Source of the DNA: DHVE2 group archaeon
Lineage (GTDB): Archaea; Thermoplasmatota; Thermoplasmata; Thermoplasmatales; Aciduliprofundaceae
DNA length: 51,575 nucleotides
Direction: 5' to 3'
NCBI GenBank assembly: GCA_026993785.1
Contig: JALWRZ010000011.1
Location: 1 to 51,575 of the forward strand
Shown in pieces: positions 22,743 through 48,107 of the stretch. A program made the translations under genes and the position numbers. Within the stretch, counting starts at the first letter, position 1, and every line of letters starts with the position of its first letter. The notes under the pieces are model-generated. The model did no database searches and was not told the origin of the DNA. It was given only the letters and a program-made list of their open reading frames with translations.

Positions 22743-22785
22743 GCAACCGTAGATTACGGGTCAGAACTTGAAGAAGGTGATATGC

Positions 22786-23310
22786 TTGGAAAATGCAAGC
22801 AAGTTGAGCCGCTTCCTGTATGCATTCATAATCTACATCATCATATGGTGCATATTCATCTATTCTCCAGGGATGGATAGTCAGCACTTCCTTCAGGAGT
22901 TTTCCGTGGGGATTATTTTCGCGCTAATAGCTTCTGGGTTCAGCTACACACATCTTTCAACGCGAGGTCTGAGAAATCTATCTCCCCGGAGAATTGGATG
23001 GGCTATAGCCTATGTTCCTGTATTTCTGTGGGCAATGATAAAAGCAAATCTTGATGTGGCTTACAGAGTTCTTCATCCCAAGAGACCCATAAAGCCGGGT
23101 ATAGTGAGGATAAGAACCCATCTAAAGAATCCAGTGGGCAAGTTAGCTCTTGCAAATTCTATAACCCTTACGCCGGGAACAATGACCATGCAGATAGTGG
23201 ATGATAAGTATTACATTCACTGGATATATGTGAGAAGCGAGGATGAAGAGGAAGCCGGGAAGGACATCAAGGGAAGTTTTGAGAAGTACCTGAAGGAGGT
23301 GTTCGATTGA
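22786..23310 (+). CDS. mbxA: MbxA: MnhE/MrpE-like antiporter subunit
   Basis: First gene of the 13-gene complex. The 174-residue product has two membrane helices near the N-terminus (FLYAFIIYIIIWCIFIY and FSVGIIFALIASGFS), a third at AIAYVPVFLWAMIKANLDVA, and the soluble C-terminal domain of MrpE/MnhE (PGIVRIRTHLKNPVGKLALA, NSITLTPGTMTM). These Mrp-type subunits form the Na+/H+ translocating part. The start is uncertain: TTG 22786 is 4 nt after GGTGAT and downstream of the predicted transcription start; TTG 22768 and GTG 22777 are alternatives. It overlaps mbxB. Confidence 0.85.
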   Translation: MENASKLSRFLYAFIIYIIIWCIFIYSPGMDSQHFLQEFSVGIIFALIASGFSYTHLSTRGLRNLSPRRIGWAIAYVPVFLWAMIKANLDVAYRVLHPKRPIKPGIVRIRTHLKNPVGKLALANSITLTPGTMTMQIVDDKYYIHWIYVRSEDEEEAGKDIKGSFEKYLKEVFD

Positions 23311-23573
23311 TCTGCCCAATTAGCCTCTGCGCAGTTTTCATAGGAATAATTGCGGTGGCCACATTCCTCTCCATTGTTAGAGCCATAAAGGGACCAACAG
23401 GCGCGGATAGACTAGTTGCCCTTGATGTAATGACAAATATAACAATTGTTCTGCTTGTGCTTCTTGGCTACTATTTCCAGAGATTCATATATCTCGATAT
23501 TGCCCTTGTGTATGGTATCCTATCCTTCGTGGGCGTAATCGCAGGAGCACGCTATCTGGAGGGAGGCCTATGA
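23307..23573 (+). CDS. mbxB: MbxB: MnhF/MrpF-like antiporter subunit
   Basis: An 88-residue protein with three membrane helices and the MrpF signature RAIKGPTGADRLVALDVMTN, ending IALVYGILSFVGVIAGARYL. It starts at a TTG that overlaps the mbxA stop, with GGAGG 8 nt upstream. It overlaps mbxC by 4 nt (ATGA), consistent with equal production of the small subunits. Confidence 0.88.
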   Translation: MICPISLCAVFIGIIAVATFLSIVRAIKGPTGADRLVALDVMTNITIVLLVLLGYYFQRFIYLDIALVYGILSFVGVIAGARYLEGGL

Positions 23574-23914
23574 ACTGGATAGACCTATCACTTTCAATCC
23601 TGGGATATATCTTCATTGGAATCGGTTCCTTCTTCCTTCTTTTAGCTTCAATTGGTCTCCTCAGAATGCCCGATGTGTATAATAGGATGCAGACAGCTAC
23701 CAAGGCCACCACCCTGGGTGCTTTAAGCGTTCTATTCGGTGTTGGACTTCTTAACTTACACTGGATGCCTAAGAGCATGGTTATTGCGCTTTTCATTCTT
23801 CTCACCGCACCTGTGGGTGCAAGTGCCCTCGCCAGGGCAAGCTACAAGAGCGGCATAGCTCTGTGGAAAGGTAGTGTGGTTGACAAATACAAGGAAGAAA
23901 AGGAGGAGGAATGA
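23570..23914 (+). CDS. mbxC: MbxC: MnhG/MrpG-like antiporter subunit
   Basis: A 114-residue MrpG-type protein with three membrane helices and the family motif LASIGLLRMPDVYNRMQTAT, followed by KATTLGALSVLFGVGLL and APVGASALARASYKSGI. Translationally coupled on both sides through 4-nt overlaps. With MbxA and MbxB it forms the small-subunit part of the ion-translocating module. Confidence 0.9.
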   Translation: MNWIDLSLSILGYIFIGIGSFFLLLASIGLLRMPDVYNRMQTATKATTLGALSVLFGVGLLNLHWMPKSMVIALFILLTAPVGASALARASYKSGIALWKGSVVDKYKEEKEEE

Positions 23915-24165
23915 AAATGGATCTCTTCATGGTAGTATCTCTCATACTCATCATCGCGATGCTCATCGCCGCTTTAGTGGCCGCGGAATCTAGGGATCTT
24001 ATATCGGCGGCGATAGCCATGGGTGTCGTGAGCCTCATAGCTTCAATCCTATTCTATATGCTGCAGGCTCCAGATGTAGCTATCACCGAGGCGTCCATAG
24101 GTGCAGGTTTGAGCCTGGCGATTATGATATTTGCCATAAAACATACTGTGAGGTGGGAGAAATGA
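23911..24165 (+). CDS. mbxD: MbxD: DUF4040 (MbhD-like) membrane subunit
   Basis: An 84-residue membrane protein with three helices. The pattern LVAAESRDLISAAIAMGV, then YMLQAPDVAITEASIGAGL, is the DUF4040/MbhD signature also found at the end of large MrpA proteins, where a conserved Glu in the EAS segment lies on the ion path. ATGA-type overlaps join it to mbxC and to the next gene. Confidence 0.88.
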   Translation: MKMDLFMVVSLILIIAMLIAALVAAESRDLISAAIAMGVVSLIASILFYMLQAPDVAITEASIGAGLSLAIMIFAIKHTVRWEK

Positions 24166-24893
24166 AGCGTGCTGTGGCCGCAATACTGGCAATCCTCATA
24201 TTTATTGTCCTGGGACTTGCCTTCGCCAAGATACCCTTTGGTAATGTGAATCTGGAGGATTATCACTATTACAATCCCATACAGGATAAGCAAACCTCCG
24301 ATTCTGTGCCAGCGCATTATCTCAAAGAAGGAAAAAATGAGACGGGATCTACAAATATTGTAACTGCCGTGGTTGTTGATTACAGGGGTTTCGATACCTT
24401 AGGTGAGGTCACCGTGCTTTTCCTTGCCTCCACAGGAGTTGGGTCTGTGATGTACATATTTGAGAAGGAGAAGCGCAGAAAGGTGCGTCGCGCCAATGCT
24501 GTGGTTGAAACCGCTTCTAAATTGCTGTTTGGATTCATCATTCTTTTTGGCGCCTACATTTTCGTGCATGGGCATCTCACCCCCGGAGGCGGTTTCCCGG
24601 GAGGCGCTGTCATAGCTTCCTCCTTCCTTCTTCTCTATCTGGCGTATCCTAAATTCCACGCGGAGCACAAGAGTCTAAATGTGGCGGAGAGCCTTGCAGG
24701 TCTTACCTTCGTGGGCGTGGGTTTAATTGGTCTGCTCGTGGCAAGCTATTTCCTCTACAATTTCCTGCCATTTGGGTTGCCCACCTACCTATTCAGTGCA
24801 GGCGTAATCCCCATAATCTACGTGGCGGTTGGAGTTAAAGTTGGAAGCGAGCTAACGGGTATAGTGGATGCTATGATGGGGGTGAGAGAGTGA
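24162..24893 (+). CDS. mbxF: MbxF: fused MbhE-like and MbhF/MnhB-like subunit
   Basis: A 243-residue membrane protein that joins two modules which are separate genes in mbh-type clusters. Residues 1-105 match MbhE (SGSTNIV-type stretch TNIVTAVVVDYRGFDTLGE, then VTVLFLASTGVGSVMYIFE). Residues 115-243 match MrpB/MbhF, with the invariant FVHGHLTPGGGFPGGAVIA and VKVGSELTGIVDAM. ATG 24162 overlaps the mbxD stop; the longer GTG start at 24153 is less likely. The order (D then F, no separate E) matches the Thermococcales mbx arrangement. Confidence 0.85.
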   Translation: MKRAVAAILAILIFIVLGLAFAKIPFGNVNLEDYHYYNPIQDKQTSDSVPAHYLKEGKNETGSTNIVTAVVVDYRGFDTLGEVTVLFLASTGVGSVMYIFEKEKRRKVRRANAVVETASKLLFGFIILFGAYIFVHGHLTPGGGFPGGAVIASSFLLLYLAYPKFHAEHKSLNVAESLAGLTFVGVGLIGLLVASYFLYNFLPFGLPTYLFSAGVIPIIYVAVGVKVGSELTGIVDAMMGVRE

Positions 24894-25228
24894 TTCCCTA
24901 TTACTACATTGCATCCATAGCTTTGATCGCATTGGGCTTCTACATAGTGATTGCCAAGAAGAATCTCATAAAAATAATAATCGGATTAGATATGATGGAT
25001 ACTGGTGTTAATCTTCTGCTCATATCCATAGGGTATGTGAAGGGTGGTACAGCGCCTATAGAAAACGGAAATTATCCCATTTATGTGGATCCGATCCCCC
25101 AGGCTCTTGTGCTTACGGCCATAGTCATAGGGGTCTCCGTCATGGCCCTTGCCCTTTCTATTGCGATAGGATTATACAAGAATACCGGAACGGTGGAGAT
25201 AGATGAGATAAGGAGGTTGAGAGAATGA
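24890..25228 (+). CDS. mbxG: MbxG: MnhC/NuoK-like subunit
   Basis: A 112-residue protein with three membrane helices and the MrpC/NuoK pattern KKNLIKIIIGLDMMDTGVNL, followed by PIYVDPIPQALVLTAIVIGV and VMALALSIAIGLYK. It begins at a GTG overlapping the mbxF stop. In related complexes this subunit sits between the antiporter-like large subunits and the small ones. Confidence 0.9.
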   Translation: MIPYYYIASIALIALGFYIVIAKKNLIKIIIGLDMMDTGVNLLLISIGYVKGGTAPIENGNYPIYVDPIPQALVLTAIVIGVSVMALALSIAIGLYKNTGTVEIDEIRRLRE

Positions 25229-26646
25229 TACATCCGGTGCTTCTTATAGCAATTCCTCTGTTCTTCGCATTCCTTCTTCCCTTGATTAGCCTGTGGTCCA
25301 AGAAATCCCTGCCCTATGTGACCACAGCCGTTATGGGATTGAACACCATTATCGCTATTCTCGTATTCTTGGAGGCTATGAAAGCTCCCATATTCGATAT
25401 AATCGGCGGCTTCCAGCCACCTCTGGGCATAGTTCTCATGGTGGGACCCCTGGGTGGGTTCCTGGCCATGATAATAAATACAGCCGCTTTGATCATCTCC
25501 ATCTATAGCATGGAGATGAAGAAGGAGCCTCTTCTCAAATATTACATGCTAACGCTCCTCCTTCTAATGGGAACCAACGGAATGGTTCTTACGGGAGATA
25601 TATTCAATTTATTCGTATTTCTGGAGGTTACATCCATCGCCTCCTACGGACTTGCCTCTTATAACAAGGATCTCAAGGGATTTGAAGGAGCACTCAAGTA
25701 CGTGATTCTCGGCTCCATAGGAAGCACCTTCGTACTTATTGGTATAGCGCTAATCTATTCCCAGCTCAGAACATTGAACATGCTGGACATCGCCAGAAGA
25801 TTGGGCGAGATGGACCCCTACACAAAGATTGTGGCATTCGCCTCACTCTTCCTAGGCTTTGGCGTGGAAGCAGAGATGTTCCCCCTGAATACCTGGGTTC
25901 CTGAAACATATGATGGTGCGCCGCATCCCGTAACTGCCATGTTCTCATCCATGTCCGCCAAATCGGGGATATTCGCCCTGGCGAGGGTGATATTCACCAT
26001 CTTTGCCTTTGCCAACTATTTATGGTTCGTGGTCATAATGGGTCTCCTCACTGTATTCTTTGGAGAAATCGTAGCATATGTGCAGAAGGATATAAAGAGA
26101 ATGCTGGCCTATTCATCCATCGGTCAGATGGGTATGATAATAATGGGTCTCGGCATAGGAACAACTATCGCTGTGGAAGGTGCGTTTTTCCAGATGTTCT
26201 CCCATGCCATGGGTAAGGCACTGCTCTTTATCGCTGCAGGCTATATGATTTATGCGGCACAAACTGAGAAGATGAGCGAGATGAAGGGCATAGGCAGAAA
26301 CCCGCTTATAGGAATACCCCTTCTCATAGGAATTCTCTCCATAATGGGCATGCCGCCCTTCATAGGCTTCTATGGAAAGTTCTACATCCTTATGGGCGGC
26401 TTCTCCCAGGGTTATTACGCTATCATAGCCCTTTTCCTCGCAGCCAGCATAGTGGAAATCGCATACTACGCAAGATTCATAAAGATCGTGTTCCAGCCAT
26501 CCACCAAGAACTATCCAGCGCCTAGAAGCACGGTGTATGTGCCACTCATACTCTTTGCCATCATAATAGTGCTATTTGGTGTGTACCCACAGCCTGTGTT
26601 TGAAGTCCTGAAACATGTGGCCGCATTCCTGGCAGGAGGTGCATAA
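25225..26646 (+). CDS. mbxH: MbxH: MrpD/NuoN-like antiporter subunit
   Basis: A 473-residue, about 14-helix proton-pumping antiporter-like subunit (proton_antipo_M family). Key residues of the ion path are visible: the Glu in FVFLEVTSIASYG (TM5), Lys in MSAKSGIFALARVIF, and the charged DIKRMLAYSSIGQMG loop followed by the His-rich FFQMFSHAMGKALLF. It overlaps mbxG by 4 nt and lies 2 nt before mbxH', both being antiporter-like, as in Mbx/MBS clusters. Confidence 0.94.
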   Translation: MIHPVLLIAIPLFFAFLLPLISLWSKKSLPYVTTAVMGLNTIIAILVFLEAMKAPIFDIIGGFQPPLGIVLMVGPLGGFLAMIINTAALIISIYSMEMKKEPLLKYYMLTLLLLMGTNGMVLTGDIFNLFVFLEVTSIASYGLASYNKDLKGFEGALKYVILGSIGSTFVLIGIALIYSQLRTLNMLDIARRLGEMDPYTKIVAFASLFLGFGVEAEMFPLNTWVPETYDGAPHPVTAMFSSMSAKSGIFALARVIFTIFAFANYLWFVVIMGLLTVFFGEIVAYVQKDIKRMLAYSSIGQMGMIIMGLGIGTTIAVEGAFFQMFSHAMGKALLFIAAGYMIYAAQTEKMSEMKGIGRNPLIGIPLLIGILSIMGMPPFIGFYGKFYILMGGFSQGYYAIIALFLAASIVEIAYYARFIKIVFQPSTKNYPAPRSTVYVPLILFAIIIVLFGVYPQPVFEVLKHVAAFLAGGA

Positions 26647-26648
26647 TA

Positions 26649-28466
26649 ATGGAAATATGGAGCGCCTTTGGAATATTCGTCCTCGTTCCCTTAATAGGTG
26701 CTTTGCTCTCATACCTAGCGAGAAAATATGCTGTTTATTTAGGATTAATATTCGCATTGGTTCCTGCGATTGCACTCTATCCGTTCTATGGCAAGGAAAT
26801 GAGCACTGTCGTTAATATAGGCGTGAAACTGAACTTGGCCTTTGATGTAACTACGTGGTTCTTCATGCTCATGCTCGATACCGTAGCTCTGGCATCCATG
26901 CTATTTGCCACAAGCTATGTTAGGAAGGGCGAAGGGGGTTTCTCCACTCTCATGCTCCTTGGTTTAGCTGGTGCAAATGGCGTTTTGATGGCACGGGATT
27001 TTCTAACCCTGTATATCTTCTGGGAGATGATGTCCTGGTCCGCGTATATCCTCGTTCTTCGCAGCTCCGGAGAGTATGCCCGGCGCTATATGCTCTTTGC
27101 AGTTCTATCTGCGTATCTTCTAATCATGGGCATAGGCATCTATTACTACTATACTGGTAGCTTCCTTTATAGCGCGGCAAGTGGCATTCCTCTCTCCGGC
27201 TGGGCATGGATCCTTCTCTTTCTCATTCTGGGATTCGCCGTAAAGATGGCCGTGTTTCCCCTGCATGTATGGGCTCCCTACGCATATCGCTCCGAGCAGC
27301 CCTTTGTGGCATTTCTATCCGGCGGACTCAGCAAGCTTGGAACCTTCGGGATCTTTATGGCCATGTATTCCATAGCTGGAGTAGCTATACTCCAGGGATT
27401 TGGAACCTTTAGAAGCATATCCCTCTTTGGATATCCCTTCGCTGTGTTAGGCGCGTTTACTGCGTTCATAGGCACAATCCTCGCAATTTTCCAGGACGAT
27501 CTTCGCAAATTGCTGGCATATTCCTCCATCGGACAGCTTGGGTATGTTATGGTAGGCCTCGGTCTAGGAACCCCGCTGGCTGTGGGCGGTGCTTTGTTCC
27601 ATGCATTCAATCATGCGTTTTTCAAGGCCATTCTCTTCCTTGGCGCAGGAGCTGTGATTTACAGAACAGGGAAATATAGGATAAGCGAGCTCGGAGGCCT
27701 TGGATATCGCATGCCCTTCACCTTCCTATTTGTACTTTTTGCAATCTTTGCTCTTGCAGGCATACCCATCACCTCGGGGTTCATATCCAAATGGATGCTC
27801 TATGAGGCAGCCATTGAAAAGAAATTTGTGCTTATTGCACCGCTCATGCTCATTGCCTCGGTAGGTGCTTTCCTCTACTGTTTCCGAATACTCTACGGCG
27901 TGTTTCTGGGGCAGCTTGATAAAGAGCATGAGAATGTCAAAGAGGCCCCGGCACCCATGCTTGCAGCCATGGCTCTTCTCATGCTTCCTCTTCTCATATT
28001 CGCAATCTTCCCTGGCTGGATACTTAAGTGGATTAACGAAATACTCACAGGGGCGAATATAGGCACCCTGAAGTATGATACCTATGCCTACTACTCCTCC
28101 ATCGGTGGTGCGGACATGCTGGTGTTCTGGATTACTTTCATGCTCCTCTTCATGATATCCATGTATCTTTTCACAAGGAAGCGCAAGGTGACGAAAGTCG
28201 TAGATCAATATGACAACTATCTTGCAGGAGAAACGCCACCATATGTTCAGCTGCATGCGGCCCACAACTTCTATAAGCCCCTGAGAGATACTTGGGCTCC
28301 CTTGTTAAGATATAGCGTGGACAGGGCCTATGAGAAATTCGTTAAATTCTTCATAGAGGGCTTCGAGGAAATTAAGAAAATGTACACGGAGAATCCGCAA
28401 GATTATGCTGCATATCTTGGAATTGCGTTTCTCATATTCCTCCTGGTAGGATGGTGGTTACTATGA
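26649..28466 (+). CDS. mbxH': MbxH': second antiporter-like subunit with C-terminal extension
   Basis: A 605-residue antiporter-like subunit. The family core is complete: the Glu in YIFWEMMSWSAYILV, Lys in FAVKMAVFPLHVWAPYAY, DLRKLLAYSSIGQLG and FHAFNHAFFKAILF. A tail of about 110 residues (VVDQYDNYLAGETPPYVQ, then HNFYKPLRDTWAPLLRY and a final membrane helix) resembles the lateral-helix tail that anchors this subunit to the MbxM side in related complexes. Two antiporter subunits (H and H') are characteristic of mbx and not of the Thermococcales mbh hydrogenase cluster. Confidence 0.92.
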   Translation: MEIWSAFGIFVLVPLIGALLSYLARKYAVYLGLIFALVPAIALYPFYGKEMSTVVNIGVKLNLAFDVTTWFFMLMLDTVALASMLFATSYVRKGEGGFSTLMLLGLAGANGVLMARDFLTLYIFWEMMSWSAYILVLRSSGEYARRYMLFAVLSAYLLIMGIGIYYYYTGSFLYSAASGIPLSGWAWILLFLILGFAVKMAVFPLHVWAPYAYRSEQPFVAFLSGGLSKLGTFGIFMAMYSIAGVAILQGFGTFRSISLFGYPFAVLGAFTAFIGTILAIFQDDLRKLLAYSSIGQLGYVMVGLGLGTPLAVGGALFHAFNHAFFKAILFLGAGAVIYRTGKYRISELGGLGYRMPFTFLFVLFAIFALAGIPITSGFISKWMLYEAAIEKKFVLIAPLMLIASVGAFLYCFRILYGVFLGQLDKEHENVKEAPAPMLAAMALLMLPLLIFAIFPGWILKWINEILTGANIGTLKYDTYAYYSSIGGADMLVFWITFMLLFMISMYLFTRKRKVTKVVDQYDNYLAGETPPYVQLHAAHNFYKPLRDTWAPLLRYSVDRAYEKFVKFFIEGFEEIKKMYTENPQDYAAYLGIAFLIFLLVGWWLL

Positions 28467-29434
28467 CGGATTGGGCAAATATACTGATTAATGCGGGCTT
28501 AACGGCGCTTTACCTCTTCCTTGCAATATGCGTAGGCTTACTCTTTATGGGTATCGCAAGGAAGGTTACCGCGAGGATACATAACAGGGTAGGCCCTCCA
28601 ATTTATCAGAACTTCCTGGACGTAGGAAAATTGCTGGCCAAGAAGAGCAATATTAAGCACAACTGGATATTTGATTTTGCGCCTCTCTTCGCCTTGGCTG
28701 GAGTGCTTCTTGCCTTGGCATATCTTCCCATGGGTGGCTACAGATTGCTGAGCGGCGATGGTGACCTTATATTGCTTCTCTACATCCTTGTGATTCCAGC
28801 GCTGGGCTTTGCTTTAGGTGCCGGAGCTTCCGCAAATCCAAACGCAGGAGTGGGCGTTATGAGGGCTCTTACTCTAATGCTCTCCTATGAGATGCCCTTC
28901 CTCCTAGTTCTTCTCTCTCTGATGATTTACTATAACACCGCCTCACTCACAACGCTTCTGGAGAAGCAGATGCATTCCGTATGGGCCATAGATGTGCTTC
29001 CAATCTCTGCGCTGGCAGCAGATATAGCGCTGCAGGGTATGATGATGGAAAAACCCTTCGATATACCCATAGCCCCCCATGAAATTGCATCAGGACCCCT
29101 TGTGGAATTTGGAGGCAACTATCTGGGGATGCTCATGCTTTACTCTGCTGGAAGCATCGTTGTGGAGACCTCCCTCTTCGTGGACCTATTCCTAGGGGGA
29201 GGTATAGTTCTCAATCCCGCTGTTTATGGCATCCTCGCCTATGTGGTAAATTACATTGTGTGGTTCGCTCTTATATTCGTAGTATGGATGATCGCCATAT
29301 TCATCAATGCAGTGTTCCCAAGGTTCAGGATTGAGCAGGCTTTCAAATTCTACTGGAAATGGCCTACTTTGATAGCTGCATTGGGACTCGCGCAGGCATA
29401 TATAATGTCTGTGATTCTGGGGGTGAGCGTGTGA
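28451..29434 (+). CDS. mbxM: MbxM: NuoH-like membrane subunit
   Basis: A 327-residue protein of the respiratory-chain NADH dehydrogenase subunit 1 family, which anchors the peripheral arm. Signatures are NRVGPPIYQNFLDVGKLLAK and FDIPIAPHEIASGPLVEFGG, plus the acidic MSYEMPFLL-like MLSYEMPFLLVLL. About eight helices. The GTG start at 28451 lies inside the end of mbxH' (16-nt overlap); an ATG at 28463 is also in frame. Confidence 0.93.
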   Translation: MVVTMTDWANILINAGLTALYLFLAICVGLLFMGIARKVTARIHNRVGPPIYQNFLDVGKLLAKKSNIKHNWIFDFAPLFALAGVLLALAYLPMGGYRLLSGDGDLILLLYILVIPALGFALGAGASANPNAGVGVMRALTLMLSYEMPFLLVLLSLMIYYNTASLTTLLEKQMHSVWAIDVLPISALAADIALQGMMMEKPFDIPIAPHEIASGPLVEFGGNYLGMLMLYSAGSIVVETSLFVDLFLGGGIVLNPAVYGILAYVVNYIVWFALIFVVWMIAIFINAVFPRFRIEQAFKFYWKWPTLIAALGLAQAYIMSVILGVSV

Positions 29435-29982
29435 CTCCGGAGAATCCTAACCCACTGCCAAGCATAATACCTGAAAAGGATTGGAAGAAGATACAGAGAA
29501 TGCTATCCAAGCGCTCCCTCTGGATGGTCCACTTCTGCACAGGATGCGGTGCCATGGAAATGCCCCCAACCATGACGTCCCGCTACGATATGGAAAGATT
29601 TGGAATAATACCCATGGCCACACCCAGGCAGGCAGATTTGCTCCTGGTGACGGGTTATGTGGCCGTTAAAACCCTCAAAAGGATTGTGCGAGTCTATGAG
29701 CAGATGCAGGACCCAAAATACGTGATTGCCTTTGGCTCCTGCCCAATTAACGGCGGTATATACTGGGACTCTTATAACACCATAAAGCGATTGGATAAGT
29801 ATATCCCCGTGGATATGTACATTGCAGGATGTATGCCAAGGCCCGAGGCAATTATGGACGCGTTTCTCAAACTTATGAAGGATATAGATGAAGGCCGTGC
29901 GGATGGCTGGCTACGATACAAGAAGTATTACGAGAAGTACAAGGCCAATCAGAGGCGAGTATTCAAGAGGTGGGATGAATGA
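29431..29982 (+). CDS. mbxJ: MbxJ: NuoB-like [4Fe-4S] small subunit
   Basis: A 183-residue small subunit of the NiFe-hydrogenase/complex I NuoB family carrying the proximal cluster. The four Cys ligands are visible: HFCTGCGAME (two), AFGSCPINGG and IAGCMPRPEA. The GTG at 29431 overlaps the mbxM stop as GTGA and follows GGGGGTGAG; the longer frame from 29359 reads inside mbxM and is not used. It should sit between MbxL and the membrane part. Confidence 0.93.
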   Translation: MTPENPNPLPSIIPEKDWKKIQRMLSKRSLWMVHFCTGCGAMEMPPTMTSRYDMERFGIIPMATPRQADLLLVTGYVAVKTLKRIVRVYEQMQDPKYVIAFGSCPINGGIYWDSYNTIKRLDKYIPVDMYIAGCMPRPEAIMDAFLKLMKDIDEGRADGWLRYKKYYEKYKANQRRVFKRWDE

Positions 29983-30476
29983 ATGCCGTTGGTATATTCA
30001 AGGAACTGGGAATCGAGTACGAGGAGATGAAGGTCAAGGGAAACAAAGACCCGAGATATCGGGCAAAGGTGGATCCCGAGAAACTGGAGGATATAATTCT
30101 CAAGTTCAAGAACAATGGGTTCCGGCACTTCGTGGCCCTGAGCTGTGTTGACTGGATAAAGGAGGGTAATATGGAGCTCATCTACCATCTATTCAGCTAC
30201 GATAACCTGGAGGATGTTTTCCTAAGCATATATTTACCGAGGGATCAGCCAAAATATAAGAGTTTGAGGCATCTGTTCCCTCAAATAGAGACCTATGAGC
30301 GGGAGATACATGAGATGTTTGGAGTGGAGTTCGAGGGCAATGATAGACTTGGCGAATTCATCTTGGAGGACTGGGAAGATATGCCACCCATGCGCAAAGA
30401 CTTTGACACGGAAAAATATGCGAAGGAGAAGTATGGGAGCGTGCCCCTTGTAGAGGAAGGGGGTGAAAAAGAATGA
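29979..30476 (+). CDS. mbxK: MbxK: NuoC-like subunit
   Basis: A 165-residue homologue of the 30-kDa complex I subunit (NuoC). The family motif is seen in LPRDQPKYKSLRHLFPQIE, YEREIHEMFGVEFEGND and RLGEFILEDWEDMPPMRKDF. The ATG overlaps the mbxJ stop and the 3' end overlaps mbxL by 4 nt. It is expected to pack against MbxL in the peripheral arm. Confidence 0.92.
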   Translation: MNAVGIFKELGIEYEEMKVKGNKDPRYRAKVDPEKLEDIILKFKNNGFRHFVALSCVDWIKEGNMELIYHLFSYDNLEDVFLSIYLPRDQPKYKSLRHLFPQIETYEREIHEMFGVEFEGNDRLGEFILEDWEDMPPMRKDFDTEKYAKEKYGSVPLVEEGGEKE

Positions 30477-31600
30477 AAGAATTCGAGTTATTTGTGGGTC
30501 CACAGCACGTGGGCGTTACCGGAAACATGATGTATCATCTATGGGTTGATGGTGATACGGTAGTTAAGGCGGAGACCCATGTAGGTTATCTTCATCGAGG
30601 CTTTGAAAAATTAATGGAGCGGCGCTCCTGGCTCATGAATGTTGCTCTTATACCCAGAATATGCGTTCCTGAACCCGATGTGAATGAGGCAGTTTATGCC
30701 ATGGCTGTTGAGAGTCTTATGGATTGGGAAATACCCGAGAGGGCAAAGTATATCCGTGCTATGGTTCTCGAGCTTGCCAGATTAAGCGCGCATCTGCTTG
30801 CCATAAGCGGCTATGCTGGAACCATAGGTCTTTACACCATTCCCCAGTGGCTCATAGGTGACAGGGATTACATTCTCGATCTCTTTGAGCAGCTCACAGG
30901 GGCCAGGGTTTATCACATATACATATTCCCCGGCGGTGTGCGCTGGGACCTGCCAAATGGATTTCTGAGAAAGCTGGAGAAGGTGCTCAATTATCTGGAA
31001 TCTCGTTTCAAGCTGTACGATGATTTGCTATTCCAGAACAAGATATTCTTCGACAGGGCCCCAGATGTGGGCGTAATTCCCAAAGAGAAGGCCATAGAAT
31101 GGGGCGTTACAGGTCCAAATTTGAGGGCCTGCGGCTACGCCTACGATGTGAGAAAGGTAGATCCCTATGCCGCATATCCAGATCTCGATTTTGAGATACC
31201 TCACTATCCCAAATTTGGAGATTTCGAAGTTCTCGGTCACGGATGCGACTGCTACTCCCGCATGGTTGTAAGGAGATTGGAAATGGAGCAGAGTATAAGA
31301 ATCTTGAGACAGATTATAAAGAAGATACCGGATGGCCCGCACACCTTAAAGCTGCCAAATCCGTTGGCATGGAAGGTTCCTGCAGGGTATGCCTATGCCC
31401 GGGTTGAGAGCTCCAAGGGAGAATATGGATATCTTGTAATAAGCGACGGGGGCAAGATGCCATACAGAGTCCATGTTAGAGGTCCCTCCTATACCCATGG
31501 AATAAACGTTATTGAGAAGATTGCCCCGGGATTGAATATTGCGGACTTTGCACAGACAGCATTTAGCCTGGATGTTTGCCCACCGGATATTGAGAGGTGA
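30473..31600 (+). CDS. mbxL: MbxL: NiFe-hydrogenase-like large subunit lacking half of the metal-site cysteines
   Basis: A 375-residue large subunit of the NuoD/hydrogenase group-4 family, with GPQHVGVTGNMMY and ETHVGYLHRGFEKLMERR at the N-terminus. Where hydrogenases have RxCGxCxxxH it has PRICVPEPDV (single Cys64), and where they have DPCxxCxxR it has SLDVCPPDIER (single Cys369). So a NiFe centre cannot be ligated in the normal way. This one-plus-one Cys pattern is the hallmark of MbxL/MbsL of the Thermococcales membrane-bound sulfane sulfur reductase. The substrate is therefore probably polysulfide or sulfane sulfur. Confidence 0.93.
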   Translation: MKEFELFVGPQHVGVTGNMMYHLWVDGDTVVKAETHVGYLHRGFEKLMERRSWLMNVALIPRICVPEPDVNEAVYAMAVESLMDWEIPERAKYIRAMVLELARLSAHLLAISGYAGTIGLYTIPQWLIGDRDYILDLFEQLTGARVYHIYIFPGGVRWDLPNGFLRKLEKVLNYLESRFKLYDDLLFQNKIFFDRAPDVGVIPKEKAIEWGVTGPNLRACGYAYDVRKVDPYAAYPDLDFEIPHYPKFGDFEVLGHGCDCYSRMVVRRLEMEQSIRILRQIIKKIPDGPHTLKLPNPLAWKVPAGYAYARVESSKGEYGYLVISDGGKMPYRVHVRGPSYTHGINVIEKIAPGLNIADFAQTAFSLDVCPPDIER

Positions 31601-31604
31601 TAAT

Positions 31605-32081
31605 ATGAGCATAGTTAAGCCCTTTAAGGCATTAAAGCATCTTGCGAAGCATCCCCATACTGTTAGGTACCCATATCAAAAGCATACAGATATAGAAGGC
31701 ACCGATTTACCTACGGAGCGCTATCGTGGCTTTCATTCCAATAACATTGAGACCTGTATAGGTTGTCAGCTCTGTGCCAAGGTCTGCCCTGCCAACGCCA
31801 TCACCTATGTAAAGATTGAGAACGCAGGAAAGAAGGGGCTCAAGTGGAGACCTGTAATAGATTACGGGCGCTGCTGCTACTGCGGTTTCTGCACCGATAT
31901 ATGCCCCACCAAATCGCTTATTCTTACTCCCAGGTACGAGCTGGTAACGGAGAAGATAGAGGAGTTTAAGTTCATTCCCACGCTCCAGGTTAGGGAGAAG
32001 AAAGATAAAGCTATAGATATTAGCGAGGTTATATTCTCCCCCGAAGAGTACAAGCCACCACAGGAGAAAGCGAAAGATTAA
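31605..32081 (+). CDS. mbxN: MbxN: NuoI-like ferredoxin subunit
   Basis: A 158-residue protein with two [4Fe-4S] binding motifs, TCIGCQLCAKVCPANAI and CCYCGFCTDICPTKSL, which relay electrons (probably from reduced ferredoxin) toward MbxJ/MbxL. The tail ISEVIFSPEEYKPPQ is charged. ATG 31605 has GAGGTGAT just upstream; the longer frame to 31539 overlaps mbxL and is rejected. Last gene of the operon. Confidence 0.94.
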   Translation: MSIVKPFKALKHLAKHPHTVRYPYQKHTDIEGTDLPTERYRGFHSNNIETCIGCQLCAKVCPANAITYVKIENAGKKGLKWRPVIDYGRCCYCGFCTDICPTKSLILTPRYELVTEKIEEFKFIPTLQVREKKDKAIDISEVIFSPEEYKPPQEKAKD

Positions 32082-32084
32082 TAA
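32077..32084 (+). promoter_or_regulatory. TATA-like element for the gene at 32107
   Basis: ATTAATAA is centred about 26 nt before ATG 32107 with no ribosome binding site, predicting a leaderless transcript. Confidence 0.4.
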
Positions 32085-32106
32085 CCTTCTTTTTATCCTT
32101 TGTTCT

Positions 32107-32400
32107 ATGCGGCTTTACGATTTCAAGAGAGGACATAAAAAAGATCTTGAGGGGATTGAAGCCATAATGAAAGAGCTATTCGGAGAAGTAAAGCGTGAGG
32201 GTGAGCATCTTATAGCCTCTTTCGGTTCGTTGAAGAGGATAGAGGTATGGCTCGAAGGCGGCAAGATGGCCGCAGTAACAGAATCGGAAAAGGGAAAGAG
32301 CCAGGATGCCCAGGAAACCCTCAAGAGATGGAACGAGTTCCTATTCAGGGTTACGGGCTACACGGCCAAGGAAAGAAAGAAAAAGATGACAAAAACATAG
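32107..32400 (+). CDS. Small archaeal protein (DUF5611-like)
   Basis: A 97-residue cytoplasmic protein: MRLYDFKRGHKKDLEGIEAI, then HLIASFGSLKRIEVWLEGGK, and FLFRVTGYTAKERKKKMTK. This start and the TGYTAKERKKKM ending resemble the archaeal DUF5611 family of unknown function; the family label is from memory and moderate. A leaderless start is supported by the TATA-like element at 32077. It converges with the RHH-proteasome gene, the stops being 1 nt apart. Confidence 0.75.
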   Translation: MRLYDFKRGHKKDLEGIEAIMKELFGEVKREGEHLIASFGSLKRIEVWLEGGKMAAVTESEKGKSQDAQETLKRWNEFLFRVTGYTAKERKKKMTKT

Positions 32401-32401
32401 C

Positions 32402-33136
32402 TCATTGGAGAATTTCCGATAGAAGATAGTCTTTGGGTCTTCCCAGGGACTCTAGTGCGAGATTGAGTGCTTCCTCTCTGCTCATCTTCTCCTCGTACTT
32501 ACTATTTAGATACGCGATGATATCTCCGTTTCCATCGCCCAGTGCAGCAAATTTTGAGATGGTGTAAGCACCCGATGGGTCGTAGCACACAATTTTCTGA
32601 GATTGCGATGAACCGAGCATTGTTGCGGCTCCAAGCGGTCTCAGATCCGCTGCCACAGTATGACGCCAGTAAATCTTGGAAATGTAATAAATCAGTTCCT
32701 CATCATTATCAAATTTTCTTGCCAGAACACTGTGGATTATGTGATATGCATCCGCGGCCAGGCCTGAAAATGTAATGAGATATCTCTTTCCAATGTTGAA
32801 AATTTTTCTGTGCTCTACGCCTTTAAGCACCTTCCCGTTGTTATCCCTCTTCTCCTCTATCTTGGCCAGAAAGAGTATACCATGACGATGCACTATACCT
32901 ACAACGGGAGCACCTCTATATGAGGCCTCCATCGCATACTCCAACTGATAAATTCTGCCCTCAGGGGAGAAGATTAGCCTGTTATCGTATTCTCTGGCTA
33001 TTGAGGATACCCTGTCCAGATACTCCATAAGCGCAGCCCTGAGAAGCTCTGCCTTGGTGGAAAACATACCCGTTCTTGCCAGGGATTCAATGTACCGATC
33101 CACCTTATCCGGAAGCATCACCCTAACTTCACCCAT
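32402..33136 (-). CDS. Ribbon-helix-helix DNA-binding domain fused to a proteasome alpha-subunit domain
   Basis: A 244-residue two-domain protein. Residues 1-45 are a ribbon-helix-helix domain (GEVRVMLPDKVDRYIESLAR, FSTKAELLRAALMEYL): basic strand, turn, two helices, as in CopG/NikR-type regulators. After a linker of under ten residues comes a full proteasome alpha domain: the signature FSPEGRIYQLEYAMEASYRG, then HRKIFNIGKRYLITFSGLAA, RPLGAATMLG and YDPSGAYTISKFAALG. Like alpha subunits it has no N-terminal catalytic Thr. The RHH domain replaces the gating N-terminus of a normal alpha subunit. ATG 33136 is chosen because GGAGGT lies 7 nt before it. Likely a DNA-binding regulator with a ring-forming or ligand-sensing alpha domain; its role is unknown. 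Confidence 0.9.
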   Translation of the reverse strand: MGEVRVMLPDKVDRYIESLARTGMFSTKAELLRAALMEYLDRVSSIAREYDNRLIFSPEGRIYQLEYAMEASYRGAPVVGIVHRHGILFLAKIEEKRDNNGKVLKGVEHRKIFNIGKRYLITFSGLAADAYHIIHSVLARKFDNDEELIYYISKIYWRHTVAADLRPLGAATMLGSSQSQKIVCYDPSGAYTISKFAALGDGNGDIIAYLNSKYEEKMSREEALNLALESLGRPKDYLLSEILQ

Positions 33137-33152
33137 TTTTATTACCTCCATT

Positions 33153-33185
33153 TTAATGGATATTTCATGTATATTTTATGGATAT
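33153..33185. promoter_or_regulatory. Three tandem 11-bp direct repeats, probable autoregulatory operator
   Basis: Consecutive units TTAATGGATAT, TTCATGTATAT and TTTATGGATAT follow each other without spacing. They run from the TATA box to the expected transcription start of the RHH-proteasome gene. RHH dimers commonly bind tandem short sites, so autorepression is likely. Confidence 0.75.
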
Positions 33186-33192
33186 ATTTAAA
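33183..33192 (-). promoter_or_regulatory. TATA box of the RHH-proteasome gene
   Basis: Minus-strand TTTAAATATA predicts a start near 33161, inside the direct repeats, and a leader of about 25 nt. Confidence 0.6.
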
Positions 33193-42930: not shown

Positions 42931-43971
42931 ATGGCTATATATTTTTTACTGCTTAAGATGATTGCACCTCTAAGGTATGTTATCTCTCTTCATAAACGTT
43001 CCATACTCACTGTTGTTGCTATCGCTGTAGTTGTGATGTTTCTCACCTCCATTACCGTTGTTATCTACAGCTTCGAGATGAGCAACCGAGCTCTTGTTGA
43101 GAGATTCCAGACAGACTATTATGTTATCTCTTCCACTGAAGATTTATTGAAGAGCAGGGTTCCAGAAGAGCTTGTGGGCAATAAGGGCGCTTATGTTACC
43201 ATTCTGAATGCGCGGATAAACAATGTTAGCACCTATATTGTTGGAATATATGATCCAGGCAACATACTGGGAAAAAGATATCAATGCTCAGCTGGAGAGA
43301 TTATTCTGGGCAAATACTACAGCAACAAGCTCATCGCAGTGCATGTTGCCTGGAGAAATGGAAGTGAAGTGTTGAAGGTGAAAAGAATCACGAATCTCAA
43401 TTTTTTCCCCCAATACTGGGCCGTGGCAAATTTCTCCTTCGTGAAAAACCAGACCCATAGGGTGAATTTCATAATCACCAAGGGGAAGATAAATGTCCAG
43501 GGTTATGAGATTTACAGCATGACAAAGCTCAACGATTTCTATGTGAAAAATATAGGGGAAATAACCTGGGACCTCTTCTTTCTCGAGGCAATTTCCATTG
43601 TGGTGATTTATATTTTCACTAACACTTTACTTAACATGGAAATACGGGAAAATGTGCGCAAGATAGGAATAATGAAAGCAGTTGGATCGTCCAAGAAGAA
43701 CATCGCAGCTCTCTATCTCCTCCGCTCAATTTTTGTGGGCTCCGCGGGAATGCTTCTAGGCTTTTCCCTGGGAGTTATACTCTCCTACCTTCTCATTTCC
43801 TTCATCCCTCTCCTGGGACTTTCAACCTATTTCTTTATCTACATTCCTCCAATGGTTTTTCTCATCGATCTCCTCATAGCCATTGCAGGTGCAGCCATCG
43901 CCGCTGTAGGGCCAATCAGGAGGGCTGTACGAATAGATATACTCCGGGGCATGAGGGGTGCTATGATATGA
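42931..43971 (+). CDS. FtsX-like ABC permease
   Basis: A 346-residue MacB/FtsX-type permease: N-terminal helix (ILTVVAIAVVVMFLTSITV), an extracytoplasmic domain of about 170 residues, then three helices at the C-terminus with the family coupling motif NVRKIGIMKAVGSSKKNIAA and the ending GPIRRAVRIDILRGM. It overlaps the second permease by 4 nt. The start is unclear: ATG 42931 (GGGGAG 10 nt upstream) overlaps the divergent promoter; ATG 42958 would give a shorter and equally complete protein. Confidence 0.9.
   Translation: MAIYFLLLKMIAPLRYVISLHKRSILTVVAIAVVVMFLTSITVVIYSFEMSNRALVERFQTDYYVISSTEDLLKSRVPEELVGNKGAYVTILNARINNVSTYIVGIYDPGNILGKRYQCSAGEIILGKYYSNKLIAVHVAWRNGSEVLKVKRITNLNFFPQYWAVANFSFVKNQTHRVNFIITKGKINVQGYEIYSMTKLNDFYVKNIGEITWDLFFLEAISIVVIYIFTNTLLNMEIRENVRKIGIMKAVGSSKKNIAALYLLRSIFVGSAGMLLGFSLGVILSYLLISFIPLLGLSTYFFIYIPPMVFLIDLLIAIAGAAIAAVGPIRRAVRIDILRGMRGAMI
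42936..42944 (-). promoter_or_regulatory. TATA box of the ABC ATPase gene
   Basis: Minus-strand AATATATAG lies 26 nt before the GTG at 42914. The element is within the first codons of the divergent permease frame. Confidence 0.55.
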
Positions 43972-46900
43972 TTATAGGAAAGAATACCGCGGTTCCTGTT
44001 CTCATTCTTTTAATACTCTTCACGTCCCTCTTCGTATCCATAACTTCCATATCCCAGATGCCCGACAAGATAATGGGAGGCAAGGATATCTATGTGCTCA
44101 CCTCTTCTACAGATAGAAATCCGCTGCGAAGCAATCTGGATATAAATATAGCCTATGGTCTGGAGAATATGAGCTATGTTAGCGAGGTAAGCCCGGAGAT
44201 CTTTGTTTTTACAACCATAAACGGTAGGCCAATAACCATTCGCGGGGTGATTTTCTCAAAGCTCCTACACCTGGAGAACGGGAACATCGTTGAGGGGCAT
44301 TTTCCTCGCAATGAGTATGATGCACTGATAGGTTATCGAGCACAAAGATTCTTGGGTGTGAAGATAGGGGATAGGCTCACGCTCCTTGGAGGTTTTACTG
44401 CCTCCATGGCTATAGTAAATATAACGGGAATCTATAAAAGTGGATATCCCACAGATGATGAGTTAATAGTGTCTCTCAGCACGGCAAGAAAGCTTGCAGG
44501 CATTGGAGATAATCAGATTTCCATAATCAGGGTAAAGAGCAAGGAAAAGAGGATGCTGGAGGAGTTTATGAGTCCTCGATATCCAAAATTCTCCGCCACC
44601 CTAAATGTAACGGATCATGCCTATCCCGGGCAGAGAATAAATGTAACGGTAAATATAGAGAATATGGGCACTGTAGGCGGAAGATGCAATCTTACCCTCT
44701 TATGGAACAACCAAAGCTGGAGATATGAGGATATCCCTGTAACAACGGAGAGAAAGATTACAGCCACAATCACTGCACCATCACCTGGAAATTATACCCT
44801 TATTGCCAGGGTGGAAAACTATCTCCTCCACTACACGATTTCCCAGGAAATTGAGATATTAAAGAAACCCATTTTCATAAAAGGTCCATCGCAGTTAATG
44901 GCAAATTCAGCAGCTATGTTTTATGCGACTTCGTTTAACAATGAGAATCTCAGGAATGTAAAGGTGAGCATCTATGGAGAAGGATATTCTGATAATTTTG
45001 TTAGCGATTCACCGATTCAAATCAAAATTCCCCAGAGCGGAAATTTCACTGTGAGATTCTCCAAGGTGAGATATAAGACCAGCAGCATAGAAGTAAGGGT
45101 TTACCAAAAAGGCAATTTTAACTCTCTCGCCTCGGTAGAGCCACTCTACGGGGATTTAATACTCCTAAAGAAAGGGGAGTCTGTTCATATAAAAAGTGAT
45201 GGAGACATCTATTACTCACTGGATTCTTCCTCTCCAAGAAAAACTTCTGGAGTTATAAAATTTCCACCCTACATAATTGGGGAGCACAGGCTAAAGGTTC
45301 TCGTGATAAGAAACGAAACCATGGCAAGCAGGAATTTCACGGTGTACATCTTGGAGAAATACCATCCGGAAATTATCGCAACGAATAACCAATCCTCTGT
45401 GTACTATGGGAGCGAGATAACATTTCAGCTAAGGGACGAGGTACCCATTATAAATGCCACCGTCCATTATGGAAATGAGATAAGGGAGTATCAAATCGAG
45501 CAGCAATTTGAACCCGAGAAAAAGGAATATGTGTATAATATAACCCTACGGATTGAAAAATCTCGCTGGATCAGAATTTTCTTCTCCGATCTCTTGGGCC
45601 AAATATACAATGAAAGCTTCAGGTACAAGATAATATACCAGCGGGACATATTTCCGCCGCAAATCATACTACCCAAGAATCTGAGGATATGGAGCGGGAA
45701 TACAAGTGTAGTAGAGGCGAGAGATAATGTGGCCGTCGCCAATATATCCGTGGAGATATTTGGCAGATATTTCAATGCCACATCCTCCCAGGTGAGGATA
45801 CCAACCGAGTTTATGATTAACGGCACTCCTTATTTTATGCCCGTAGGCGCATATCCCGCAAAAGTTATCACATACGATGTAAATGGTAACCGCAATGAAA
45901 CTTCCTTCACCCTGATCATCGATAATAGCAACGAGAAAATTCCTCCCATCATACTGGGACCGCGCTACTGGAATATGAGCCTTGGAGCCGCGATCTTCAG
46001 AGCTTATGATAATGTGGGCGTGCGATATATAGAATGCTACGAGAATACGACTCTGCTAAAAAAGGTCAACGGCTCTTCCTTAGTTTTGAATAGCAGCGAA
46101 ATTCTCCCAGGGCCCCATTCTCTCTTAATAATCGCGGGGGATATCAATGGAAATATTGCATCTTTTTCCTCCTATGTTTTCAAGAACTACACCGATGGGG
46201 AAAAGCCCAGAATAATAATCAAGAAAACCACTGTGTGGAGTGGAAGCTTTGTGATGGTAACCTCCAAGGACAATACTGAGGTAGCGAAAATAAAGGTTTA
46301 TTTCCCCTATAATGGAAAATATTATACGGGAAGCACTTCCGTGAATATTCCTACCATGCAGATAGAGGGAGATAATGTTTCCTATATGCCTGAGGGAAAC
46401 TACACATTGGAGGTATGGGCCTGGGACATCTTTGGCAACTGCAATCACACCTCCTTAAATTTTACCATAAATAACTCCGGAGAGAGAGTCCCCCCAATAA
46501 TCTTTGGAGATTTTTACGCGGATTTGAGCAATACCTCTCACATTTACAGAGCCTTTGATAACGTTGGTATTAAGGAAATGCTCCTAATCATAGAGAATCA
46601 AGCAATAATTAGGGTAGAAGGAAATAATATTACCTTAAATCTATCCGAGATACCACGCAGATATGCTGGAGATATCCCGGCAGATATCCTTGCCGTGGAT
46701 GTGAACGGAAATATGGCATCTCTTGGTATTCTTCTCCATGTCCCAGATCGTGCATCGCCGCAAATCATACTACCCAAGAATCTGAGGATATGGAGCGGGA
46801 ATACAAGTGTAGTAGAGGCGAGAGATAATGTGGCCGTCGCCAATATATCCGTGGAGATATTTGGCAGATATTTCAATGCCACATCCTCCCAGGTGAGGAT

Positions 46901-48107
46901 ACCAACCGAGTTTATGATTAACGGCACTCCTTATTTTATGCCCGTAGGCGCATATCCCGCAAAAGTTATCACATACGATGTAAATGGTAACCGCAATGAA
47001 ACTTCCTTCACCTTGATCATCGATAATAGCAACGAGAAAATTCCTCCCATGATCCTGGGTCCGGAATTCTATGCCCTGAGCTTCAATTCCACGGTGAGAT
47101 ATGATGCGTATGACAACTCCTTCGTGTCTAGGATGTGGGCAGAGGAAGGGGGAGTAACCTTTTCTTTATCCTATGGAAAACATCTCATTCTGCGTTACCG
47201 GGATTTGAAGGAGGGCTATCACAACATCACTATTTTTGCCAAGGATATCCATGGAAATGTGGGCAAAATGAATGTAACTCTGTTTATCGAGTATGGCCCT
47301 AAACCCACAGTATCCCTCTATTTGCCCAAGAGTGAAATTTCCCCGGATACCACGGGCATTTTAACGGTTACCCTGAGCAACGGTGAAGTTGCAGGCTATT
47401 ACAATCTCACCTTAATCATCGATGGAAAAGTTGCCAAAAGCAAGCTTGTCTTTCTCAGGCCAGGAGAGATCAAGAACGTCTACATATCCATTCCGCCCCT
47501 TAAACTCGGCACCCATGTTTTGAGTGTGGAAAATCAGAGCGTAGAGCTTAAGGTGGTGGAGAAAAAAGAGCTTATACCCATTGATACTGTATTGAAATAC
47601 ACCAAGAATTTAAAGCTGAGTGGCAGCAGTGATGTCATCTATAGGGGCTTTGAAATCTCCGAGGGAAATGTGATCCTAACCTTTGCATCGCTCATAGCTA
47701 TCACGGTAATTCTCGTTTTCTTGGGCATATATTATTCTCTCCTGAAGGGAATGAAGCTCTCGACGATAGGAGTGCTCCGAGCCATAGGAGCCACTAAGAG
47801 CGATATAAGAAAATTGATATGGAGAGATGCATTCAAATACCTCCTGCCAGCGATGATTGGGGGCATAATTTTGGGATACGCTATTACGATAATTCTCAAT
47901 CAGCTGCAGATTCTACGTGCTTTCGGGCATCAACTGATAATAGGGGCATCGCTATCAACCATAGCCCTTATCATAGTAACATCGCTCCTCTTTCTTCTGC
48001 TCTCTCTCCATCTCCTCATCTCCCGGGTTACCGGTGCCAGGGTGATCCATCTCCTAGGAAGAAGTAAGGAGGAGAGAATAGTAAAGCTTGAGGAGGTGCT
48101 TTCTTGA
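43968..48107 (+). CDS. FtsX-like permease with a giant Ig-like ectodomain (1379 residues)
   Basis: The N-terminal helix and MacB-type periplasmic domain (to about residue 200, with GYRAQRFLGVKIGDRLTLLG) and the C-terminal three helices with LSTIGVLRAIGATKSDIRKL make this an FtsX-family permease. Between them is an insertion of about 1000 residues of Ig/CARDB-like beta domains rich in N-x-S/T sites (for example HAYPGQRINVTVNIENMGTV). Residues about 563-661 and 930-1028 are nearly identical copies. The first 220 residues of the insertion look like a CARDB domain. It probably contacts the S-layer or partners outside the cell; cargo unknown. Confidence 0.88.
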   Translation: MIIGKNTAVPVLILLILFTSLFVSITSISQMPDKIMGGKDIYVLTSSTDRNPLRSNLDINIAYGLENMSYVSEVSPEIFVFTTINGRPITIRGVIFSKLLHLENGNIVEGHFPRNEYDALIGYRAQRFLGVKIGDRLTLLGGFTASMAIVNITGIYKSGYPTDDELIVSLSTARKLAGIGDNQISIIRVKSKEKRMLEEFMSPRYPKFSATLNVTDHAYPGQRINVTVNIENMGTVGGRCNLTLLWNNQSWRYEDIPVTTERKITATITAPSPGNYTLIARVENYLLHYTISQEIEILKKPIFIKGPSQLMANSAAMFYATSFNNENLRNVKVSIYGEGYSDNFVSDSPIQIKIPQSGNFTVRFSKVRYKTSSIEVRVYQKGNFNSLASVEPLYGDLILLKKGESVHIKSDGDIYYSLDSSSPRKTSGVIKFPPYIIGEHRLKVLVIRNETMASRNFTVYILEKYHPEIIATNNQSSVYYGSEITFQLRDEVPIINATVHYGNEIREYQIEQQFEPEKKEYVYNITLRIEKSRWIRIFFSDLLGQIYNESFRYKIIYQRDIFPPQIILPKNLRIWSGNTSVVEARDNVAVANISVEIFGRYFNATSSQVRIPTEFMINGTPYFMPVGAYPAKVITYDVNGNRNETSFTLIIDNSNEKIPPIILGPRYWNMSLGAAIFRAYDNVGVRYIECYENTTLLKKVNGSSLVLNSSEILPGPHSLLIIAGDINGNIASFSSYVFKNYTDGEKPRIIIKKTTVWSGSFVMVTSKDNTEVAKIKVYFPYNGKYYTGSTSVNIPTMQIEGDNVSYMPEGNYTLEVWAWDIFGNCNHTSLNFTINNSGERVPPIIFGDFYADLSNTSHIYRAFDNVGIKEMLLIIENQAIIRVEGNNITLNLSEIPRRYAGDIPADILAVDVNGNMASLGILLHVPDRASPQIILPKNLRIWSGNTSVVEARDNVAVANISVEIFGRYFNATSSQVRIPTEFMINGTPYFMPVGAYPAKVITYDVNGNRNETSFTLIIDNSNEKIPPMILGPEFYALSFNSTVRYDAYDNSFVSRMWAEEGGVTFSLSYGKHLILRYRDLKEGYHNITIFAKDIHGNVGKMNVTLFIEYGPKPTVSLYLPKSEISPDTTGILTVTLSNGEVAGYYNLTLIIDGKVAKSKLVFLRPGEIKNVYISIPPLKLGTHVLSVENQSVELKVVEKKELIPIDTVLKYTKNLKLSGSSDVIYRGFEISEGNVILTFASLIAITVILVFLGIYYSLLKGMKLSTIGVLRAIGATKSDIRKLIWRDAFKYLLPAMIGGIILGYAITIILNQLQILRAFGHQLIIGASLSTIALIIVTSLLFLLLSLHLLISRVTGARVIHLLGRSKEERIVKLEEVLS
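45655..45949 (+). repeat. Internal duplication, copy 1 (295 bp)
   Basis: Identical to 46756-47050 except C at 45912 (T at 47013). The offset is 1101 bp, exactly 367 codons, so the frame is kept. Confidence 0.97.
46756..47050 (+). repeat. Internal duplication, copy 2 (295 bp)
   Basis: Second copy; the flanking Ig-like repeats on either side are only distantly similar, so the identity is limited to this block. Confidence 0.97.

Follow-up and report, generated by a model that had tools for sequence, protein, structure and literature searches.

A gene of a DHVE2 group archaeon encodes a ribbon-helix-helix (RHH) DNA-binding domain fused in frame to a proteasome alpha-subunit domain, and its product, here called RHH-alpha, is probably an autogenous regulator that was built from a duplicated proteasome alpha subunit and that controls itself as well as the genes co-transcribed with it. 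Autoregulation via the predicted operator, three 11-bp direct repeats in the promoter of the gene, is strongly supported at the level of sequence. Few parts of the cell are as strongly conserved as proteasome subunits, and the conversion of one of them into a DNA-binding regulator is unreported in the open-access literature searched; likewise, no published description of a protein of this design was found there, in agreement with the sequence-only reading of this DNA, to which no characterized protein of the kind was known.

Domain Organization of RHH-Alpha

The gene is a single uninterrupted reading frame on the minus strand (33136-32402) of the window, which is the whole stretch of 51,575 nucleotides that was analyzed, and it has only one good start, the ATG at 33136. 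A second in-frame ATG (33151) precedes the ribosome-binding site. The features of the gene and its product are as follows:

32402..33136 (-), RHH-alpha gene, 244 amino acids plus stop, ATG at 33136
33002..33136 (-), RHH (CopG-type) domain, residues 1-45, with ribbon 3-8, helix A 10-22 and helix B from 28
32978..33010 (-), helix B extended through the linker, residues 43-53 (AlphaFold model)
32924..32989 (-), proteasome alpha N-terminal signature, residues 50-71, YD...FSPEGRIYQLEYA, helix H0 (Pfam PF10584, E 6e-10)
32444..32917 (-), proteasome alpha body, residues 74-231, with a shortened H1-H2 hairpin (PF00227, Foldseek, PsmA alignment)
32405..32443 (-), C-terminal tail, residues 232-244, a single predicted strand (AlphaFold model, PsmA alignment)
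33144..33149 (-), ribosome-binding site GGAGGT (read from the sequence)

The in-frame fusion, as it had been read from the letters, is borne out by the single reading frame, by Pfam and by an AlphaFold model. Proteasome_A_N matches residues 50-71 (E 6e-10) and Proteasome (PF00227) matches residues 74-231 (E 1e-17, 64.9 bits against a cut-off of 22.4), the latter over profile positions 3-170 of 189, ending before the end of the profile. RHH_1 matches residues 7-42 with 20.2 bits, marginally under its cut-off of 20.5, when the whole protein is scanned, and reaches 24.3 bits, above the cut-off, when the RHH domain is scanned alone; the RHH profile is matched by 9 of 17 relatives. The model was calculated with 39 homologues (mean pLDDT 89.8), superseding an earlier one from six sequences in which the RHH was of low confidence, and consists of helices 10-22 and 28-53, H0 (61-72) and then the alpha sandwich, with 20S alpha subunits as the top Foldseek matches and nearest PDB folds. 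The RHH ribbon is a coil in this monomer model because the ribbon forms in the dimer only, and linker residues 43-53, which have the lowest pLDDT (about 62-63), are modeled as a continuous rod from helix B into the alpha domain. The model finishes with one strand, while PsmA goes on to a further strand and a C-terminal helix, and the H1-H2 hairpin is ∼9 residues shorter than in PsmA. The alpha domain, which had been called complete, is without its C-terminal end, and its match stops at 170 of 189. Similarly, replacement of the alpha N-terminus by the DNA-binding module applies to the gate tail before YD, but not to YD, the turn SP(D/E)G or helix H0, all of them retained and among the best-conserved segments of the protein.

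Distribution and Origin

The host genome (G000; 1.66 Mb, 99.8% complete) carries an ordinary PsmA (C13:32420-32974, in an exosome gene cluster) and a PsmB (C10:213203-213748), hence RHH-alpha is an additional alpha-type protein; that it might be the sole alpha subunit of its genome, which the sequence-only reading had named as a finding that would overturn its proposal, is thereby ruled out. The same reading had suggested a search of other archaeal genomes for the architecture, and the initial profile already found full-length relatives outside the family. With a 13-row profile, 39 carriers (host genome counted) were identified among 400 genomes of the class, every match beginning at the RHH. 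A first sample of a second phylum, to which the Marsarchaeota locus L035 belongs, yielded two RHH-alpha and the class concerned has six in 257 genomes, so that the fusion is present at full length in 39 class genomes and six of this other phylum, in a sample which spans these two phyla and in which many genomes are incomplete MAGs. The six second-phylum proteins comprise 273-281 residues and have a complete alpha C-terminus; in the class, the last strand and the C-terminal helix are absent from 39 of 39 members. Trees of the alpha domain alone place RHH-alpha on one side of a branch and PsmA on the other (SH-aLRT 100), and this branch retains an SH-aLRT of 95 with the second phylum added, whose members branch nearest PsmA. 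Many close relatives are without RHH-alpha, e.g., three genomes of the same genus. A single fusion, followed by truncation in the class and by many losses, explains these observations most simply, while transfer of RHH-alpha between phyla is conceivable as well.

RHH-alpha was found neither in viral contigs nor in plasmids, the latter containing ordinary PsmA only, and a contig search with a single RHH-alpha sequence returned ordinary alpha subunits only. Genome G011 has a second, partial and slightly different copy at a contig end, which is treated as a strain mixture or assembly effect. In two RHH-alpha genes of the second phylum, at loci L161 and L169 (G773 and G1172), ATA or ATT stands where relatives have ATG, near base 1497 on the coding strand, with an in-frame stop just upstream; it is possible that these two genes use a non-standard start codon.

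Predicted Operator and Regulon

Two further features lie upstream of the gene:

33151..33183 (-), predicted operator, three 11-bp direct repeats ATCCATAAAAT ATACATGAAAT ATCCATTAAAA (lag test, motif fit)
33185..33192 (-), TATA-box-like TTTAAATA, directly upstream of the predicted operator (read from the sequence)

The repeats were first spotted by eye in an upstream alignment (ATACGT/ATACAT/ATCCAT), and the sequence-only reading had guessed a DNA site at 33153-33185, which coincides with the predicted three-repeat operator. A motif fit returned three consecutive units with the consensus ATACRTtaaaa, present in 32 of 39 RHH-alpha loci and mostly fixed at -47 to -15, with p-values that are optimistic since these 39 loci had also served to train the motif model; 0.01 matches to the three-unit site are expected by chance in the window. 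An unbiased measure is given by a lag test, i.e., the frequency at which base i matches base i+p inside each upstream region. Across the 39 loci, identity is raised at lags 11 and 22 (z 12.7 and 7.2, respectively), and when each of the 20 genera is represented by a single locus the values are 10.9 and 6.8, neither of which is reached in any of 1000 shuffles, while none of the remaining lags from 5 to 40 exceeds 2 in the 20 genera. No repeat signal was seen in 19 psmA upstream regions (lag 11, z -0.4). With an 11-bp period, all units lie along a single side of the double helix, as they do for other RHH proteins that bind contiguous repeats (PMC2812701; PMC9499535). One member has five units, and a clear three-unit site is missing from 7 of 39 (G630, G599, G502 and G455, with weak sites in G383, G152 and G430), G599 and G630 being among the loci with an MFS neighbor (see below). 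In the six second-phylum genes, one unit-like TATCCRT, not three, precedes the start. A scan for bacterial promoters and terminators gave nothing above chance, as expected in an archaeon.

The reach of the predicted operator was followed by exact-pattern scans, for which the reversed pattern served as the control and which may overlook divergent sites in AT-rich genomes. In 24 whole genomes, matches to the three-unit pattern fell on the own promoter six times; elsewhere they were few, about as frequent as in the control, and included the G352 array described below. The two-unit pattern, scanned in 16 genomes, matched 22 times, 12 of these at the own promoter, while the other 10 equal the control level (10); a broad regulon was rejected on these grounds. 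A scan with three mismatches was swamped by background, its control lying above the signal in AT-rich genomes. Neither psmA and psmB of the host genome nor the PAC2 genes tested have an operator site. The proposal of a regulator of proteasome genes is thus not supported, given this result for the two proteasome genes and an enrichment of the site at the own promoter only. Because of this enrichment, the regulon as seen consists of the RHH-alpha gene and the genes co-transcribed with it. Five tandem 11-bp TACGT repeats occur at L118:1478-1540 (G352:C134:12186-12234), downstream of a PKD-like ORF; this array was considered as a second target and rejected, there being no clear gene start behind it.

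Genomic Neighborhood

In the window, an operon for a Mrp/hydrogenase-type membrane complex (22768-32400, plus strand) stands tail to tail with RHH-alpha and ends one base before its stop, a mannosidase gene at 33683 faces it 5′ to 5′, and no gene is co-transcribed downstream. The downstream gene varies by lineage. At 9 of the 39 loci (families f1, f7, and f64), an MFS transporter gene on the same strand begins at the RHH-alpha stop or just past it; these genes belong to more than one MFS subfamily, and an MFS remnant is found in G012. In family f16, the gene that overlaps the stop or directly adjoins it encodes a PAC2 protein (E 5e-46), and four complete proteins of this family carry a strict HbYX tail, VMYG, unlike the common PAC2 paralogues examined, whose tail is GYIG or a similar YIG. 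One such gene is listed here:

L074:9974-10756 (+), third PAC2 paralogue beside RHH-alpha, ending in VMYG, with relatives in f16 (G455, G463, G471)

PbaB of archaea docks on the 20S particle and opens it via its HbYX motif (PMC3605417). Ribosomal-protein, TyrRS and TldD/TldE genes (the last recognized by eye) are neighbors at other loci. In G714 of the second phylum, an MFS-like gene (L165:7244-8512, minus strand) adjoins RHH-alpha but is convergent, not co-transcribed. Elsewhere in the window, a 300-nt direct repeat (45655-45954 and 46756-47055, 99% identical) within a 1379-aa ORF (43968-48107) is a recent internal duplication.

Residue Conservation and Alternative Explanations

Over the 39 class members, the alpha N-terminal signature is the most conserved stretch of the protein, with a mean information content of 3.44 bits per column, followed by the RHH (3.14), the alpha body (2.07) and the C-terminus (1.90). 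RHH residues E3, R5, G23, F25, K28, A29, E30, R33, and A35 are invariant in the 39, of which E3 and R5 presumably face the major groove, by comparison with Arc and CopG; a glutamate is unusual where an RHH ribbon faces the DNA.

In the alpha domain, the residues retained and those lost bear on a rather unlikely explanation, namely that RHH-alpha is a variant 20S alpha subunit which joins PsmA in alpha rings, so that the RHH sits over the pore and plugs, marks or tethers the particle while also regulating its own gene. Tyr8, Asp9, Pro17, and Tyr26 stabilize the open gate of the archaeal 20S particle (PMC6696185), and D9, P17, and Y26 are invariant in RHH-alpha, with Y or F at position 8 in 39 of 39; the pocket lysine K66 is retained in 32 of 39, and the f16 operon with its HbYX-tailed PAC2 recalls the binding of PbaB to the 20S particle through HbYX (PMC3605417). 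However, K66 is Cys in the G352 group, which has the PAC2 neighbor, and the arginine of YDR is lost in 39 of 39. Y126 and the GG loop are lost and residue 12 is deleted in 39 of 39, according to the alignment to PsmA. The ∼9-residue shortening of H1-H2, the missing last strand and C-terminal helix in all 39 class members, the absence of RHH-alpha from many close relatives and a score of 96.7 bits, far below the cut-off of 287.35 of the archaeal PsmA equivalog TIGR03633, speak against a working subunit as well. This pattern would fit an alpha domain that kept the alpha-to-alpha contact surfaces near H0 and lost other features of the 20S subunit.

Somewhat less probable still is moonlighting of the kind known from PutA, in which the alpha domain would be a scaffold or chaperone away from the DNA and the RHH would only set the level of the protein itself. 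Such a role would accord with an operator essentially restricted to the own promoter and with the many loci, the window included, that have no co-transcribed partner, yet the alpha body is the least conserved beside the RHH and the signature (about 2 bits against 3.1-3.4), which is unexpected for the main functional part, and MFS and PAC2 partners recur.

Some RHH domains work chiefly via protein contacts, and the RHH_1, ParD and VapB antitoxin profiles match weakly, but a protein-dimerization module or antitoxin-like part without a role in transcription is very improbable, as the predicted operator is conserved with its 11-bp period and no toxin gene, the expected neighbor of a type II antitoxin, lies beside RHH-alpha in this window, where the hydrogenase-type operon and the mannosidase gene flank it. 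Finally, an artifact, be it two genes fused by a sequencing frameshift (a concern raised in the sequence-only reading) or a decaying pseudogene, can be dismissed with near certainty given the same full-length, one-frame architecture with invariant junction residues in 39 + 6, i.e., 45, genomes.

Proposed Mechanism

The best-rated explanation is that of an autogenous transcription factor which uses the alpha fold for oligomerization or sensing; this use of the alpha fold by a transcription factor was one of several roles considered from the letters of the DNA. N-terminal RHH dimers would bind the three 11-bp repeats that lie downstream of the putative TATA box and ahead of the start codon, a step that is strongly supported by the conserved repeats. 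As the position of the site suggests, the occupied operator would then block RNA polymerase, so that RHH-alpha represses itself and the co-transcribed genes, which encode MFS transporters in several lineages and, in one other, a PAC2 protein with an HbYX tail. The alpha domain is probably no longer a working part of the 20S particle; its retained N-terminal signature, the organizer of alpha-alpha contacts in the 20S, may instead serve side-by-side cooperative binding. Signal sensing would likewise fall to the alpha domain, and, more speculatively, the contacts might change and repression be lifted in response to a ligand or partner, conceivably a substrate of efflux, a 20S protein or a PAC2 protein.

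Eleven base pairs span ∼37 Å, which is near the spacing of adjacent alpha subunits in the ring, a match that is suggestive only. Tentatively, and with a rather small chance of being right, the operator-bound alpha domains might join side by side, as in the proteasome ring, to form a DNA-bound arc or ring whose assembly answers to the state of the 20S system of the cell (PsmA in free form, or proteins with HbYX, the linked PAC2 among them); if true, a proteasome-derived transcription factor would read proteasome status directly. As a probable autogenous regulator, RHH-alpha would be a test case for the reuse of a ring-forming subunit in cooperative DNA binding: its predicted operator is still legible in the DNA across many genera, and the system supplies the promoter, the protein and candidate targets (an MFS pump and a proteasome-binding PAC2 protein).

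Comparison With Known Systems

RHH-alpha shares with archaeal PsmA (PF10584 plus PF00227) the alpha N-terminal signature, helix H0 and the alpha sandwich, but differs in the gate tail, in place of which it has the RHH, in the YDR arginine, the Y126 loop, the full H1-H2 and the C-terminal end, and it forms a separate clade. Trifunctional PutA carries an N-terminal RHH on a larger proline-oxidizing protein and is an autogenous repressor (PMC5293562). Both proteins have an N-terminal RHH on a large unrelated domain, and the autogenous control of PutA is predicted for RHH-alpha too, whereas the partner domain is a flavoenzyme in PutA and a proteasome alpha fold in RHH-alpha, whose promoter has three 11-bp direct repeats. 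NikR-type regulators combine an RHH with a C-terminal ACT domain for sensing and oligomerization, and respond to nickel; the overall plan would be shared, with the alpha fold of RHH-alpha in contrast to the ACT domain and nickel of NikR. In RelB and in Omega/ParB of pSM19035, adjacent RHH dimers occupy contiguous repeats over their own promoters (PMC2812701; PMC9499535), yet these repeats are hexads or 7 bp long against 11 bp for RHH-alpha, for which the toxin or ParA partner is absent. As to the archaeal PAC2 proteins PbaA and PbaB, the operon-linked PAC2 of f16 has a PbaB-like HbYX tail and represents a partner in one lineage, not a homolog of RHH-alpha.
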